Virus record (IMG/VR): IMGVR_UViG_3300042474_000958
Coordinates: 1 to 43,516 of that record
From: a virus
Length of the DNA stretch: 43,516 nucleotides
Strand: one strand, 5' to 3'
The translations under genes were made by a program, and so were the position numbers. Position 1 is the stretch's first letter; each line of letters opens with the position of its first letter. Shown here one piece after another: positions 14,449-42,167 of the stretch. Below the pieces are notes generated by a model. It was not told the DNA's origin. It saw only the letters and a program-made list of their open reading frames with translations, and searched no databases.

Positions 14449-15246
14449 TTAGTCTTTTAATCCTACAAATGCCTTTAATGGATAAAAAACAAGTGAATTT
14501 CTATAGCCACCTTCGTGAGTTGGTATAATTGGTGTTACGCCATGAACATTTCGCCACGCTGGATAAACTAATATTGAATTGTCTTGCTGACCAATAGTAG
14601 CTCCGTAATCTGGAACGTGCAAATCTCCACCTTTTGAATTGAATTTTTTACAAATAATTACGTTTACTGCTCCAACTATATTGCCAGCGTCACGGTGGAA
14701 TGGTGCTGAAATATTATAATTTGAAATAGAACTTGTAAACAGATTTCCAAACTTCCATTTTTCTGGCACTTGTTTAAATAATTCAACTTGCTGCTCATAT
14801 TGTTTTGGCAATAATTCTTTTATTAATTGCTCACTTTCTTTTGCTAATAATAGCATAGCTTTTATAAATGTTTGTGCTGTTTTTACTCCGTGAACACTTG
14901 ATAAAGTTGCATAGTTTCTTCTCATATGTGGCTTTGGAGGTACAGAACCGATTATTGTAGAATATTGCAATACTACATTTTTATATTTATACTTTCCTGT
15001 TTTTTCATCAATACCATCTGTAGGTGCTCTTTTCATTTCTGTTTTAGGTACATTTTTAGTCCTTAATTCAGAATTGGCTAAATCAGCTAATTTGCACATT
15101 TTTTCTGGCATTTGCTTCATATAAAAGCCTATTGGTTCGCCATCTGCATAAAATATACAATCTTCTGTAATGTTTGGCTCGATATACTCACAGGCTTCGC
15201 CAATTTTACGATTATGTTCTATTGGTGTTAAATCAATTATTTTCAT
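14449..15246 (-). CDS. 2OG-Fe(II) dioxygenase, TET/JBP-like, probable DNA base hydroxylase
   Basis: 265 residues. The C-terminal double-stranded beta-helix shows the full iron and cosubstrate set: H184-x-D186 in APFHRDAGN, H235 in WRNVHGV, and R249 fourteen residues later for 2-oxoglutarate (GGYRNSLVFY), with the GGDLHVPDYG strand between. This order is that of TET/JBP-type oxygenases, which oxidise the methyl group of 5-methylcytosine or thymine. The start overlaps the upstream glycosyltransferase gene by 14 bases, and a ParB-like gene precedes that. A free-nucleotide or protein hydroxylase cannot be excluded, but the neighbours favour a DNA base. Confidence 0.8.
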   Translation of the reverse strand: MKIIDLTPIEHNRKIGEACEYIEPNITEDCIFYADGEPIGFYMKQMPEKMCKLADLANSELRTKNVPKTEMKRAPTDGIDEKTGKYKYKNVVLQYSTIIGSVPPKPHMRRNYATLSSVHGVKTAQTFIKAMLLLAKESEQLIKELLPKQYEQQVELFKQVPEKWKFGNLFTSSISNYNISAPFHRDAGNIVGAVNVIICKKFNSKGGDLHVPDYGATIGQQDNSILVYPAWRNVHGVTPIIPTHEGGYRNSLVFYPLKAFVGLKD

Positions 15247-15967
15247 ATAATTTTTTCTTATTAATTTGTATTTGATTTAATCTTTTGCTATGTGGTTCTA
15301 GTATGCCATTGTGTTTACTTATTACATACGAATTGCATATTTTTTCTTTTTCTATAGTTCTATAATCATTTGCACCTCCTTTATTATTTCTGTGTGGGAA
15401 TTTCATTTGTAAACAATCAAACCTCATTATTGTATATCCACTTTTAATTTGAGTTACATACATATCATAATCTTCTTTTAAATCTGCAAACTCATCATAT
15501 TCTATTTTATTTCTAATTAATATACAATCATTAACTACTAATTGATTCAATGATATTGGTTTACCAGTATAATGCAATATACTATCTGTAATTGAAACAC
15601 CAGCTAAATTACATTTATCTATTTTAATAAAATTATTTAACATAAATGCTAGTGCTTTCTTAAAAGTTATTTTTGTTCTTAAATAATTACCTTTTTCACC
15701 ATGAATTAAATTGCAATATTGATAATCATCAGATATTTGTAAGCAAATTAAATTTTTTGAATCTAATATAGCTTTATTTCTTGCTTTACAAATATTACCA
15801 TCAACTTCTACAACATTAGTAGCACCATAATTCAAATATGTTTGTTTTTCATTTTTTTTTGTATAAAAAGTAAATTTTAAACCAGTATTATCTTCTATTT
15901 TTTTTATATTCTCTGGTCTATTTGTAGATATACAAGCACAATATATATTAAATTCATGATTAATCAT
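15233..15967 (-). CDS. Glycosyltransferase, TET-associated / GREB1-JGT-like, probable DNA base modifier
   Basis: 244 residues from the ATG at 15967, which overlaps the ParB stop as ATGA; a longer frame reading back inside parB is less likely. GT-A features: N-terminal strand INHEFNIYCACISTNRPENI, an acidic SDDY motif at 79-82 for metal and sugar nucleotide, then LKEDYDMYV at 163-171 and NNKGGANDYR at 194-203. The KEDYD and GG pattern is what I recall from glycosyltransferases beside phage TET/JBP oxygenases, related to kinetoplastid base J glucosyltransferase. It probably attaches a sugar to the hydroxylated base made by the overlapping downstream gene product. Confidence 0.7.
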   Translation of the reverse strand: MINHEFNIYCACISTNRPENIKKIEDNTGLKFTFYTKKNEKQTYLNYGATNVVEVDGNICKARNKAILDSKNLICLQISDDYQYCNLIHGEKGNYLRTKITFKKALAFMLNNFIKIDKCNLAGVSITDSILHYTGKPISLNQLVVNDCILIRNKIEYDEFADLKEDYDMYVTQIKSGYTIMRFDCLQMKFPHRNNKGGANDYRTIEKEKICNSYVISKHNGILEPHSKRLNQIQINKKKLYENN

Positions 15968-16586: not shown

Positions 16587-16682
16587 CTATTTTGAGCCAT
16601 AATCAAATATAGTACTTTTTAATCTATTACAATTAACACTATCCCACACTTCATCACCTACTTTAAATTTTGTTGTTTGCAT
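16587..16682 (-). CDS. Small hypothetical protein, 31 aa
   Basis: ORF from ATG 16682 to TAG, beginning MQTTKFKVGDEVWDS, a pattern of small SH3-like beta proteins. It lies between the SSB-like gene and parB in the same orientation, 8 bases before the ParB start. No family beyond the KVGDEVW start is recognised. Confidence 0.45.
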   Translation of the reverse strand: MQTTKFKVGDEVWDSVNCNRLKSTIFDYGSK

Positions 16683-16706: not shown

Positions 16707-17003
16707 TTAAAATGGCAATCCATCCTCTATTTCACTTTTAGTTGGTTCAGCTGGTGCTTTGGCAGTTCAGTTGCTACCATTACTTTTTGGCTCAAATGTA
16801 TTCAAAACAAAGCTCAAAGCGTTTTCATCTTTCTTTTGCTTTAATATATCAAAGTTCACATAACCACTACTATTTGCATTTTCTTTTAAAAATGTGATAG
16901 CATCCTCAACTTTTATATTTAGAGTGCCTAATACGTAATCAGGTGCGCCTTGTCTTGGAAGTTTACCATAAAATCCTTTGCCATATACTTTTTCGTTTGC
17001 CAT
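16707..17003 (-). CDS. SSB-like protein interrupted by an in-frame TGA
   Basis: The plain frame (17003 to TGA at 16769-16767) gives 78 residues beginning MANEKVYGKGFYGKLPRQGA. Past the TGA the same frame stays open for 19 residues, TAKAPAEPTKSEIEDGLPF, then TAA at 16709-16707. The acidic tail ending in DGLPF mimics the C-terminal tip of bacterial SSB (DDIPF), which recruits replication and repair proteins. Small phage ssDNA-associated proteins of this size often carry such a tail. TGA is an ordinary stop elsewhere here, so this is a nonsense mutation, sequencing error or programmed readthrough. Confidence is for the 78-residue gene being real. Confidence 0.7.
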
Positions 17004-17006
17004 TGT

Positions 17007-17375
17007 TTAATTGTTTAATCGTTCTTTTAATTTAATATTGTCTATTTTTATTATGTTTAGTAGGTGGTCTGGTAAATTTGAATTGATAATGCAACTTGTA
17101 TTATGTGATTCATTTTCATATTTACCACTCCTGCAACCTATTAATTCTAATTTTATGTCATCTATTGCCATACCTTTAATAGTCAATAAGCTACCATCTA
17201 TTACAAGTGAAGCACCTATATCGTTATTCTCAAACACTAGATTTTTACCAGTATGAAAGTAATTTACAGGGCAATTTATAAATTGTCTTATCTTGTTATC
17301 ATAGATTGCATACACTCTACAAAATGCAGTTTTTCTAGTATTTATAATTTGTAAGACCTCTAAATGATATTGCAT
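17007..17375 (-). CDS. Hypothetical early leftward protein, 122 aa
   Basis: First gene of the leftward unit. The start at 17375 (MQYHLEVLQIINTRKTAFC) is chosen because a good promoter ends four bases before it; the frame stays open further upstream but would read through the promoter. The sequence is mixed alpha/beta with no known motif. It ends 3 bases before the SSB-like gene, so a DNA-metabolism role is possible. Confidence 0.55.
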   Translation of the reverse strand: MQYHLEVLQIINTRKTAFCRVYAIYDNKIRQFINCPVNYFHTGKNLVFENNDIGASLVIDGSLLTIKGMAIDDIKLELIGCRSGKYENESHNTSCIINSNLPDHLLNIIKIDNIKLKERLNN

Positions 17376-17379
17376 AATG

Positions 17380-17410
17380 CAAAAATAGTACTTTTTTATC
17401 ATTTTACAAA
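17380..17410 (-). promoter_or_regulatory. Leftward promoter, leaderless
   Basis: Minus strand TTTG (17410-17407), exactly 19 bases, TATTTTTG (17387-17380), then CATT and the ATG at 17375. A full match to TTTG-N19-TAnnTTTG. Transcription should start at or next to the A of the ATG. It would drive the hypothetical, SSB-like, ParB, glycosyltransferase and dioxygenase genes. Confidence 0.8.
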
Positions 17411-17447: not shown

Positions 17448-17530
17448 CTTGATTATCAATAACTTACACTTTATTTTGCATATTTGTAAAAATAAATTTT
17501 TATTTTCGTAAAAAGGTTGTATATTTGCAT
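17448..17530 (+). promoter_or_regulatory. Rightward early promoter with upstream conserved box (copy 1)
   Basis: Contains CTTGATTATCAATA (17448-17461), then a 48-base promoter block (17483-17530) ending in TATATTTG (17520-17527) with TTTT at 17497-17500, 19 bases upstream, in the -33 position. The block matches 30241-30288 with 4 differences. The predicted transcript starts near 17531, 19 bases before the first gene. The shared upstream box may be an activator or repressor site common to both units. Confidence 0.7.
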
Positions 17531-17549
17531 ATAATTTAAAACAAAAAAA

Positions 17550-17777
17550 ATGAAAAATTACAATAAAAAAACAAAAAAAGCATACGTGCCTAGATTTACA
17601 AGTGATGGTGTTGTTAGTCAAGAGTATATCAATAATAGAAATGAGAATTATAAACAAAATCGTGCTAATTTCGACACAACATTACCATCATGGCATAATA
17701 TGAGTGCCGAAGATAAATATAAATTTGAATTAGAAAGAGAAGCCGATAAAAGAGGTTCTCATAGTACATTTAATTAA
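17550..17777 (+). CDS. Small early hypothetical protein, 75 aa
   Basis: 75 residues, basic N-terminus (KNYNKKTKKAYVPRF) and an acidic helical end (SAEDKYKFELEREADKRG). It is the first gene after the early promoter repeat, a typical place for host-takeover genes. No family recognised. Confidence 0.55.
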   Translation: MKNYNKKTKKAYVPRFTSDGVVSQEYINNRNENYKQNRANFDTTLPSWHNMSAEDKYKFELEREADKRGSHSTFN

Positions 17778-18169: not shown

Positions 18170-19465
18170 ATGAAAAGATATTTAGATAAAAACGTATATG
18201 ATGCATCTACTGAAAGATTAAACTTTATTTTTTTAAATTTTGAAAAAGTATATATTTCTTTTTCAGGCGGTAAAGATAGTGGAGTTTTGCTAAATCTAGT
18301 TATTGATTATGTTCGTAAAAACAATATTAATAAAAAAATAGGCATACAGATATTAGATAATGAAGCTAATTATGAATATTCATTAACTTTTATGCATAAA
18401 ATTTTAAAAGCAAATTTAGATATATTAGATATTTATTGGTGTTGTTTACCAATTACACTTCCTTGTACAGTCTCTTCTTATGAAACAGATTGGCAGTGTT
18501 GGGGAGTTAATGACCAAAAAAGGTGGATAAGACCAATGCCAAAAGAAGATTATATTGTAAATATAGATAATCATAAATTTAACTTTTTTAAAGAAAATAT
18601 GCAATATGACCATTTTTGGGATGGATTTGCTGAATGGTATGCTGATGGTAAATTAACAGCTAATTTAATAGGTATTAGAGCAGATGAAAGTTTAAATAGG
18701 TTCAGGGCAATAGCTAATGATAATAAAGAAACATTAAAAGGCAATATTTGGACTAAAAAAAACACAACAAATGTATTTAATTGCTATCCTATATATGATT
18801 GGAAAACAAAAGATATATGGGTTGCAAATGCAAAGTTTAATTGGTTATATAATGAATTATATGATGTGTTTTATATGGCAGGTCTTAACATTGCTCAAAT
18901 GAGAGTAGCAAGTCCATTTATGAGTGAAAGTAAGTCATCATTAAATCTATATAGAGTTATAGACCCAAACGTATGGCAAAGGCTATGTGCTAGAGTAATG
19001 GGAGCAAATTTTGTTGCTACTTATGGAAAACAATTAGATTATAAGTCTTTTAAATTACCAGAAGGACACACATGGAAAAGCTTTGTTAAGTTTCTATTAA
19101 ATACATTGCCAGAAGAAACATCAAAAAATTTTAAAATGCGATTTATTCAATCATTTAAGTATTGGGGTAGAATAGGTCGTGGATTGAAACCCCAAGTAAT
19201 AAAAGATTTGAGTAAAATTGGAATTAATTATCGTTTAAATGGCAAAACTGTTCATGGTTCAAAAGAACTTGATAGAGTTATAATAAAATCATTCCCAGAC
19301 CATGTAGATGGATTAAGTGGTAATCATAGTGATGTAGCTAGTTGGAAAAGATTTGCTATTACTATTCTTAAAAATGACCACACTTGCAAGTATATGGGAT
19401 TAGCACCTACAAAAGAAAAATTAGAAAGACTTAAACAAATAAAACATAAATATAGTAAAATATGA
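18170..19465 (+). CDS. IbrA-like PAPS reductase family protein (DUF3440)
   Basis: 431 residues. The N-terminal adenine nucleotide alpha-hydrolase fold has the PP-loop SGGKDS at 32-37. LIGIRADESLNRF (about residues 166-178) and NCYPIYDWKTKDIW match conserved stretches of the PAPS reductase/DUF3440 family (E. coli IbrA). The helical C-terminal half is also typical. No iron-sulfur cysteine set of true PAPS reductase is obvious, so an adenylating role, perhaps on nucleic acid, is more likely than sulfate reduction. The cupin gene overlaps its end by 4 bases and an IbrB-like gene follows. Confidence 0.8.
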   Translation: MKRYLDKNVYDASTERLNFIFLNFEKVYISFSGGKDSGVLLNLVIDYVRKNNINKKIGIQILDNEANYEYSLTFMHKILKANLDILDIYWCCLPITLPCTVSSYETDWQCWGVNDQKRWIRPMPKEDYIVNIDNHKFNFFKENMQYDHFWDGFAEWYADGKLTANLIGIRADESLNRFRAIANDNKETLKGNIWTKKNTTNVFNCYPIYDWKTKDIWVANAKFNWLYNELYDVFYMAGLNIAQMRVASPFMSESKSSLNLYRVIDPNVWQRLCARVMGANFVATYGKQLDYKSFKLPEGHTWKSFVKFLLNTLPEETSKNFKMRFIQSFKYWGRIGRGLKPQVIKDLSKIGINYRLNGKTVHGSKELDRVIIKSFPDHVDGLSGNHSDVASWKRFAITILKNDHTCKYMGLAPTKEKLERLKQIKHKYSKI

Positions 19466-19833
19466 AAGTAGTAAACGTAAATGATTTAGCAAATACTAAC
19501 AGAGATGTTAAATTTAAAGAAGGATGGTCAATAAGACCAGTTGTAAAAAGTGATGGTATGGGATTTAGCGTACATAAAACAATGATTAGAAAAGGAACTA
19601 TAGGACATTGGCATTATAAAAATCATTTAGAAAGTTGTTATTGTATTTCTGGCAAAGGTATTTTGACATCTTTAGATGATGGAAAATCATATGAAATAAC
19701 TCCAGATGTAATATATTCTTTAGATAGTCATGATAATCATACTTTTGAAGCTATAACAGATGTTGTATTAATATCAATATTTAATCCGCCAGTAAAAGGG
19801 AATGAAACACATAAAGAAGATGGAAGCTACTAA
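19462..19833 (+). CDS. Ectoine synthase-like cupin
   Basis: 123 residues, close to full length for EctC. Conserved stretches: HYKNHLESCYCISGKG (51-66), YSLDSHDNH (85-93) and NPPVKGNETHKEDGSY at the end. The iron ligands I recall for a characterised EctC (Glu57, Tyr85, His93) fall on the same residue types and numbers here. EctC cyclises N-gamma-acetyl-diaminobutyrate to ectoine; no ectA or ectB is present, so the phage would need a host supply or use another substrate. It overlaps the IbrA-like gene by ATGA. Confidence 0.75.
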   Translation: MKVVNVNDLANTNRDVKFKEGWSIRPVVKSDGMGFSVHKTMIRKGTIGHWHYKNHLESCYCISGKGILTSLDDGKSYEITPDVIYSLDSHDNHTFEAITDVVLISIFNPPVKGNETHKEDGSY

Positions 19834-20221
19834 AAAAACTTTTTATTATTGGGAAACATATAAAAATGGAATGTATAAAACATATTCTGAAATTGAAAAC
19901 TATGATTACTTATTTAATTGTGCTAAAAATGTTTTAACTAATCAATCAATTTTTCATGAATTTGGAATAAGTTTAATTACTAATTGGCATATAGTATGTA
20001 ATGTTTTTTTAAATAATTCACATATTAATAAAACCGCTTTTATTGGTCAAGCATCGTGTTGTTATGCATATAAAGTGCCAGAAATTATAACTAAAGATGT
20101 TTGGAAAATTTTAGATATTGAAACACAAAATAAAGCAAATAAAACAGCAATTATAATAATAAAAGAATATGAAGCAAGATATAGAAAATTATATTCAAAA
20201 ATGGAAGAAATATGGATATAA
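19820..20221 (+). CDS. Hypothetical protein in the IbrA/IbrB module, 133 aa
   Basis: Start taken at ATG 19820 (MEATKKTFYYWETYKNG); an earlier ATG at 19802 would add six residues. Both overlap the cupin gene. It is aromatic-rich in the first half and has a helical end (KAIIIIKEYEARYRKLYSKM-like). No known domain. Its place inside the overlapping gene string suggests a partner of the flanking modification-type proteins. Confidence 0.55.
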   Translation: MEATKKTFYYWETYKNGMYKTYSEIENYDYLFNCAKNVLTNQSIFHEFGISLITNWHIVCNVFLNNSHINKTAFIGQASCCYAYKVPEIITKDVWKILDIETQNKANKTAIIIIKEYEARYRKLYSKMEEIWI

Positions 20222-20423
20222 AGAAATTCCTGATGAAGTACCATTAAGAATACAACAATTAGGATTAGCACCAAGCTATAAGGAATTATGTATATTAATT
20301 TTAAACAATGAAATACAAATTAAAAAAAATAAAAAGTCTGCTATATACTATGAATTAAAAAGAATAGAATTAACAGATAAAGGTAAAATATTTAAATCAA
20401 ATCAACTAAAATTAAAATTATGA
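20169..20423 (+). CDS. Small IbrA-associated protein, 84 aa
   Basis: 84 residues. The segment IPDEVPLRIQQLGLAPSYKE followed by LCILILNNE resembles a short conserved protein or domain that I recall beside DUF3440/PAPS-reductase-like genes. It overlaps the preceding gene by 53 bases and the ParB-like gene by 4 (ATGA), showing tight coupling. The role is probably structural or DNA-targeting within that module; no catalytic residues are evident. Confidence 0.6.
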   Translation: MKQDIENYIQKWKKYGYKEIPDEVPLRIQQLGLAPSYKELCILILNNEIQIKKNKKSAIYYELKRIELTDKGKIFKSNQLKLKL

Positions 20424-20944
20424 AAGAATTTATTAGTCCAGTTTACAATGTACTTAGAATACCGTTAAGTAAAATTAAAGCAAATAGTTATAACCCTAAC
20501 TCAGTTGCTCCACCTGAAATGCAATTACTTGAAACATCTATATGGGAAGATGGATATACTCAACCAGTCGTATGTTATTATGATAAAGATGAAGATATGT
20601 ATATTGTTGTTGATGGTTTCCATAGATATAGAATATGTAAGGAAAGTAAAAGGGTAAATGAAAGAGAAAATGGAACTTTGCCTATTGTAGTTATTGATAA
20701 AGAAATAGGAGATAGGATGGCTTCAACAATCAGACATAATAGAGCAAGGGGTTCACACAATATAGAATTAATGAGTAGCATAGTTGCAGAACTTGTTGAG
20801 ATAGGTAAGGGAGATGCTTGGATATGTAAACATATAGGCATGAGTTCAGATGAACTTTTAAGACTAAAGCAAATTACTGGATTAGCTTCTTTATTTTTAA
20901 ACCAAGACTTTTCTAAAAGTTGGGAAATAGAAAAAGGATTATAA
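20420..20944 (+). CDS. IbrB-like ParB domain protein
   Basis: 174 residues. ParB/Srx domain: IPLSKIKANSYNPNSVAPPE at 14-33, DGYTQPVVCYYD at 44-55, VVDGFHRYRI at 63-72 (nucleotide-binding core), and RHNRARGSHN at 105-114, followed by a helix-turn-helix-like region (WICKHIGMSSDELLRLKQI). It matches the known IbrB arrangement and pairs with the IbrA-like gene upstream. ParB domains of this type bind or hydrolyse nucleotides and may direct the partner to DNA. Last gene of the early rightward string. Confidence 0.8.
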   Translation: MKEFISPVYNVLRIPLSKIKANSYNPNSVAPPEMQLLETSIWEDGYTQPVVCYYDKDEDMYIVVDGFHRYRICKESKRVNERENGTLPIVVIDKEIGDRMASTIRHNRARGSHNIELMSSIVAELVEIGKGDAWICKHIGMSSDELLRLKQITGLASLFLNQDFSKSWEIEKGL

Positions 20945-30194: not shown

Positions 30195-30288
30195 CTTGAT
30201 TATCAATACTTTATAAAAATAATGCTTTTTTATTTGCATTTTTGTACAAATAAATTTGCATATTCGTAAAAAGGTTGTATATTTGCAT
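30195..30288 (+). promoter_or_regulatory. Rightward early promoter with upstream conserved box (copy 2)
   Basis: CTTGATTATCAATA (30195-30208), then the 48-base block 30241-30288 with TTTG (30255-30258), 19 bases and TATATTTG (30278-30285). It matches copy 1 (17448-17530); the box-to-promoter distance is 11 bases longer, one helical turn. It would start the recombination gene unit near 30289. Confidence 0.75.
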
Positions 30289-30314
30289 CATCAATTAAAC
30301 AAACAAAATAAAAA

Positions 30315-41084: not shown

Positions 41085-42167
41085 ATGAAAAACAATAAAC
41101 ATAATTTCCCTTACAGGTGGACTTTAAAAGATGCAGTATTTACCAAAGACAAAGGCAAAGTATTTTCTTGCTTTGCTTGTGGTGGTGGTTCAACAATGGG
41201 TTATAAATTAGCTGGATTTGATGTATTAGGATGCAATGAAATTGACCCTAAAATGATTGAAGCATACAAAGTGAACCACAATCCAAAATATGCTTATTTA
41301 GAGCCAATACAGACCTTTAAATTAAGAACTGATTTGCCTGATGAATTATACAATTTGGATATTTTAGATGGTTCGCCACCTTGTAGCAGTTTTTCAATGG
41401 CTGGAAATAGAGAAAAAGACTGGGGAAAAGAAAAAGTGTTTAGAGAAGGACAAGCTGAACAAGTTTTAGATACTTTATTTTTTGATTTTATTGATTTAGC
41501 AAAAGAATTACAACCGAAAGTAGTAGTAGCTGAAAATGTAAAAGGTTTATTAATGGGAGAAGCTAAACAATATGTTATTAAAATTTATGATGCATTTGAT
41601 AAAGCTGGTTATTATTGTCAACATTTTTTGTTAGATGCTTCAAAAATGGGTGTGCCACAAAAAAGAGAACGTGTTTTTTTTATAGCATTAAGACAGAATT
41701 TAGCACAACCGTTTTTACATTTTGCAGATATGTTTACAGAATTACCTAAAATAGAAATTTCTTTTAATGAAAAAGAAATTCCATTTAAAAAAGTAAAAGA
41801 CAAAAACAATAATGACTATCCAATAAGTGATTTTTATAAAACTCTCTGGGAAAAAAGACAAAAAGGAGATGCTTCTTTTGCTAACATAAATGGTAGAGAA
41901 AGAGGAAAAGAGAATACAGGTTTTGGAACTAATTTTTTATATGATGATAATGTTTGTGGCACTTTAACGACAAAAAAAGACTGTTATTGTTTATTTGACG
42001 AGCCAAGATATACGAGCGACACAGAAGCAAAAAAAATAGGAAGCTATCCTCAAGATTATAACTTTTTAGGACTTAAACCAAATTATTTAATAGGAATGAG
42101 TGTTCCCCCTGTAATGACTGCACAAATAGCAAAACAAGTTTATGAACAATGGTTAAGTAAATTTTAA
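41085..42167 (+). CDS. DNA cytosine-5 methyltransferase
   Basis: 360 residues with all main C5-MTase motifs in order: motif I FACGGGSTMG at 30-39, motif IV DGSPPCSSFS with catalytic C100, motif VI AENVKG (E150), motif VIII QKRERVFFI at 192-200, a target-recognition region (about 205-300), and motif X near IGMSVPPVMTAQIAKQV. It would make 5-methylcytosine in phage DNA. No restriction endonuclease lies beside it. It has its own promoter and converges with the lipoprotein gene with overlapping stops. Confidence 0.95.
   Translation: MKNNKHNFPYRWTLKDAVFTKDKGKVFSCFACGGGSTMGYKLAGFDVLGCNEIDPKMIEAYKVNHNPKYAYLEPIQTFKLRTDLPDELYNLDILDGSPPCSSFSMAGNREKDWGKEKVFREGQAEQVLDTLFFDFIDLAKELQPKVVVAENVKGLLMGEAKQYVIKIYDAFDKAGYYCQHFLLDASKMGVPQKRERVFFIALRQNLAQPFLHFADMFTELPKIEISFNEKEIPFKKVKDKNNNDYPISDFYKTLWEKRQKGDASFANINGRERGKENTGFGTNFLYDDNVCGTLTTKKDCYCLFDEPRYTSDTEAKKIGSYPQDYNFLGLKPNYLIGMSVPPVMTAQIAKQVYEQWLSKF

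Follow-up and report, generated by a model that had tools for sequence, protein, structure and literature searches.

A conserved in-frame TGA ahead of an SSB-like C-terminal tip in a small phage gene: a candidate for selected stop-codon readthrough

A small gene in a 43.5-kb viral contig of 28.6% G+C (the whole stretch of DNA analysed here, called the window) has a TGA at codon 79, followed in the same frame by 19 further codons that end in an SSB-like tip and a TAA. This TGA with its SSB-like tail behind a 78-codon ORF is real and not a sequencing error: eight further IMG/VR contigs, i.e. nine of nine with the window, have the TGA at the same codon, an identical 19-residue tail, and the TAA. 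From the pattern of conservation in the sequence, we consider it probable that the UGA is read through under selection, so that one gene would yield a major form without the tip and a minor form with it.

The gene, its neighbours and its closest relatives

The window carries genes for a terminase, an Erf annealing protein, a YqaJ nuclease, NinB, NinG, and other phage functions. The gene lies on the minus strand. Its 78-codon ORF, together with the TGA, occupies positions 16767..17003, starts with ATG at 17003-17001, and encodes a folded domain (about residues 10-70) and the beginning of a linker, which together form the predicted tipless product. The TGA (16767..16769) has A as its +4 base, and the stop context is AAC UGA ACU in 9/9 contigs. 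The 19-codon in-frame extension TAKAPAEPTKSEIEDGLPF (16710..16766) ends with the acidic-hydrophobic tip EDGLPF (16710..16727), homologous to the family tips DDLPF, DIPF and GLPF, and the TAA at 16707..16709 closes the extended frame. Only past the TGA does the frame of this gene hold a C-terminal tip of the PF/PW acidic-hydrophobic type. The coordinates agree with the original prediction, which had pointed out an extension of 19 codons ending in EDGLPF and TAA.

Directly upstream, on the same strand, lies an ORF of 123 aa (MQYHLEV...; 17007..17378) that probably forms one operon with the tip gene. A Bacteroidota-type promoter-like site (TTTG ... TANNTTTG; 17380..17410, minus strand; a motif match only) is situated ahead of this operon; a Bacteroidota host for the phage is only a guess from that motif. 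Downstream, the next small ORF (MQTTKFKVGDEVW..., 31 aa; 16587..16682, minus strand) marks where the following gene starts. None of the six contigs examined carries the tip gene a second time in intact form. Elsewhere in the window, positions 30229-30309 repeat, with ca. 84-88% identity, a region on the promoter side upstream of the tip-gene operon (about 17471-17551), and each copy contains, or has close by, a promoter-like match of the Bacteroidota type. The window also encodes a TET/JBP oxygenase (14449-15246, minus strand), a TET-associated glycosyltransferase (15233-15967, minus strand), and a C5-cytosine methylase (41085-42167, plus strand), a set that likely serves to modify cytosines of the phage genome. 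Genes for a PAPS-reductase-like protein (DUF3440), an ectoine-synthase-like cupin, and a ParB-like protein stand in a row at 18170-20944 (plus strand); annotations of Pseudoalteromonas phage XCL1123 and Mycobacterium phage Gaia show these genes together too.

The eight further contigs come from different metagenome samples and encode the same protein with 92-97% identity. Relative to the window they are mosaics, and the DNA they share with it is mostly 85-99% identical. When the whole viral collection was searched with most of the tail peptide, allowing any codon usage and any codon at the position of the TGA, only these same eight were returned; a sister of the lineage with a sense codon at this place was found neither in IMG/VR nor in phage or plasmid records. 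Extra ORFs have been inserted in some of the contigs, directly after the TAA in two of them (L002 and L003) and directly before the ATG in another (L009), never after the TGA. Because the insertions fall at these places, the unit that recombination respects appears to run from ATG to TAA and not from ATG to TGA. One contig, IMGVR_UViG_3300034111_001103 (168934 bases; loci L150-L158), has nearly all of its window-matching blocks in its first 43 kb, the remainder being unrelated to the window save for two weaker patches; it may be a chimeric contig, or a different element containing such a phage.

The distribution of variable sites was counted over six distinct haplotypes, all from the single lineage that the nine contigs represent. 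In the domain, 29 variable sites are synonymous and 7 non-synonymous, and pairwise dS reaches ~0.7. In the tail there are 2 synonymous and 0 non-synonymous variable sites, where ~28 of the latter would be expected at the synonymous rate of the domain. Variable third positions number 2/21 in the TGA plus tail against 31/78 in the domain (p 0.009), and the TGA, tail and TAA together contain 2 variable sites in 63 nt, while all domain windows of that size contain at least 7. These statistics serve as a guide rather than as exact probabilities from independent draws, since the haplotypes share ancestry and recombine inside the gene. Low variability is also not unique to the tail, for the gene begins with 41 nt that are invariant as well. 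Both the stop and its in-frame extension are conserved in 9/9 contigs, the extension with the purifying-selection pattern of a protein.

The distant family and the nature of the protein

Scans with widening alignments gathered ~210 distinct homologues. Of these, 192 have a PF or PW tip (DDLPF, DDIPF, etc.) directly before their natural stop: the search pattern caught 190, and two more finish with QPF. Most of the others carry related acidic-hydrophobic tips, either at the end or a few residues before it. In some homologues (L112 and L301) several residues follow DLPF/DIPF, which places the motif slightly inside the C-terminus. None of these ~210 homologues, which come from the other branches of the family, showed an in-frame stop before its tip. 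A good example is the hypothetical protein UOF82548.1 of the Caudoviricetes record MW202828, which is 45% identical over 53 residues (E 3e-7), with homology over the domain, and also aligns along the whole tail. Its type of family resembles the window gene in domain, tail, length range and tip, but every member outside the window lineage is uninterrupted. The tail is not there by chance, because it aligns with the uninterrupted C-termini of this large phage family (e.g. MW202828 ...TASAPKAEPTMSDDVPF). As ~210 homologues bear the tip with no stop before it, the tail behind the TGA is, by these alignments, the family's own ancestral C-terminus, and the TGA in the linker is derived, in one lineage. 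Alignment with homologues had been proposed beforehand as a way to see which codon occupies this place, and the answer is that distant relatives have sense codons together with the tip, while all members of the lineage have TGA. Homologues that stop at the same place and lack a conserved tail were not what was found, the tail being identical in 9/9 contigs.

AlphaFold2 models the protein as a confident beta-beta-alpha-beta-beta domain followed by a disordered tail with pLDDT of about 50; the TGA falls shortly past the domain. Neither the full nor the trimmed model gave a convincing match among solved structures (PDB), and its matches in BFVD are uncharacterised phage proteins. The window protein has no match in Pfam or NCBIfam, and PHROGs gave weak SSB matches in 3/57 homologues. 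Genes for exonuclease VIII-like, Erf, Sak or RecT proteins and for primases adjoin those of the homologues, in recombination and replication cassettes of distant phages. With this gene context and a tip of the DDIPF/DDLPF type, our best guess is an SSB-like role. The acidic tip of SSB docks partner proteins, as is known for E. coli SSB (PMC10018359). The window protein shares with E. coli SSB, whose 9-residue acidic tip is called SSB-Ct, the context of DNA metabolism, a disordered linker, and an acidic tip in PF. It differs from it in being much smaller (78 or 98 aa), in having a domain unmatched to the SSB fold, and in having its tip behind a TGA. E. coli SSB ends in DDIPF, and so do several of the homologues.

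Rival readings of the TGA

Besides readthrough, a leaky stop being one option of the original prediction, that prediction had allowed for a recent mutation or an error. A recent mutation is unlikely, since the TGA is older than the divergence of the domain (dS up to ~0.7) and the tail is without decay. An old nonsense mutation deserves more attention: the tip would be dispensable and its loss long tolerated, and the tail, though untranslated, would have stayed intact through regional conservation or recent recombination. The contigs do recombine, and not only the 5' end of the gene but also the short intergenic region after the TAA is little varied. This reading must nevertheless explain why the tail has accumulated no amino-acid change while the adjoining domain diverged so far, why the tail is still common to L002 and L003, which differ in the ORF inserted right after the TAA, and why the tip is kept in nearly all other members of the family. 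We therefore regard it as rather unlikely.

Efficient decoding of UGA as sense, in the host or late in infection, by a reassigned code or a suppressor tRNA, would make the full-length protein the normal product. Few genes in these phages do end with TGA. In the window, the stops of the larger ORFs are TAA (48), TAG (5) and TGA (10). Nine of these TGA stops share bases with the start codon of the following gene (ATGA, TTGA and similar); the TGA at codon 79 is the sole free-standing one. In five sister contigs (G001-G005) TGA stops other than that of the tip gene likewise occur only at stop/start overlaps, with one exception in G005, where TGA is directly followed by TAG. Stand-alone genes in the window and in these five contigs use TAA or TAG as their stop, and almost never TGA. 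Against efficient decoding, however, the nine other ORFs end with TGA at tight overlaps, and the PAPS-reductase homologue has its TGA exactly where the family profile ends. In 38 larger ORFs of the window, all free of in-frame TGA, tryptophan is encoded by 112 TGG codons. A phage suppressor tRNA was considered and rejected: the window has no tRNA genes, and the only one in the sister contigs is a tRNA-Gln, far out in one of them. Because TGA ends nine other ORFs at overlaps, Trp is written TGG, and a suppressor tRNA is lacking, UGA is not reassigned in these phages, and the TGA of the tip gene stands out. The window holds no other extension past a stop with such a pattern, and no other conserved gene split by a TGA. 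Normal full-length synthesis by efficient decoding is accordingly very improbable.

It could also be supposed that only the short form matters as a product and that the tail DNA is conserved as a non-coding RNA or DNA element. The third positions of the tail, which are also more conserved than those of the domain, fit such an element, but the tail encodes the family tip residue by residue, and neither an RNA structure nor an Rfam match was found there. A gene overlapping the tail, whether on the opposite strand or in a different frame, was likewise rejected as the cause of its conservation, as no further ORF whose start is conserved runs across it. Small as the chance of efficient decoding is, we put that of a non-coding element slightly lower.

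The two weakest readings can be dismissed briefly. Selenocysteine has the in-frame TGA in its favour, but no stable hairpin lies just downstream, the tail RNA folds no better than its shuffles (z 0.08), no Rfam match was obtained, and homologues have no Cys at this site, which lies in a disordered linker; we give it hardly any credence. A sequencing or assembly error is a general possibility in any metagenome contig and no more, and it is excluded by the same TGA in nine contigs that come from different samples and differ in their sequence and in their flanks.

A proposed readthrough and its meaning

Selected readthrough is favoured by the following argument. In a lineage that needed only the full-length protein, changes of the TGA should have spread, for most single-base changes of this codon give sense; in one that needed only the short form, the tail should have been lost to decay. 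The sampled lineage shows neither. A leaky stop, on the other hand, would explain why TGA and tail have both been conserved, and this option of the original prediction is the one that gains support from the comparison. The gene product would be a small phage SSB-like protein in which a disordered linker joins a compact domain to a C-terminal tip for docking partners. The TGA in the linker would act as a selected weak stop, at which most ribosomes release the tipless protein of 78 residues. A minority would insert an amino acid at the UGA, with Trp the likeliest, through the near-cognate tRNA-Trp and with the help of the A at +4, and would add the tail ending in EDGLPF to give 98 residues. Among stop codons, UGA is the leakiest, and in E. 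coli tRNA-Trp misreads it with particular ease when an A follows (PMC5289835). No significant RNA structure was found at the site (z -1.0 and 0.1). The tipless form may coat ssDNA, and the tipped form may in addition recruit replication and recombination partners. We infer the readthrough itself, its level, the inserted residue, the binding to ssDNA, the division of labour, and any regulation.

Recoding is known from other phage and replication genes. The A1 protein of the RNA phage Qbeta arises by readthrough of the UGA stop of the coat protein and has a long extension. As in the present candidate, a phage product is extended past UGA followed by A; here, however, the extension would be a tip of 19 residues on a replication-type protein of a DNA phage. 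In E. coli, a programmed frameshift in dnaX gives tau and gamma, the long form having partner-binding parts that the short form lacks. With our proposal dnaX shares a replication protein made in long and short forms by recoding; it differs by using frameshifting rather than readthrough of a stop codon, and its protein is much larger. A literature search found no papers on an SSB-like protein together with stop readthrough in phages.

Well-supported cases of selected stop readthrough seem scarce in DNA phages, and the whole reading offered here hangs on one codon. Tentatively, the phage may set the share of tipped to tipless protein through UGA readthrough, and perhaps regulate it during infection, in which case the state of RF2 and tRNA-Trp in the host would control the recruitment of partners to phage ssDNA; we hold this to be possible, though doubtful. 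Since many partners dock at the tip of SSB, tipped and tipless forms made at a set ratio would, if the reading is true, provide a natural test of how many tips are needed per ssDNA coat.
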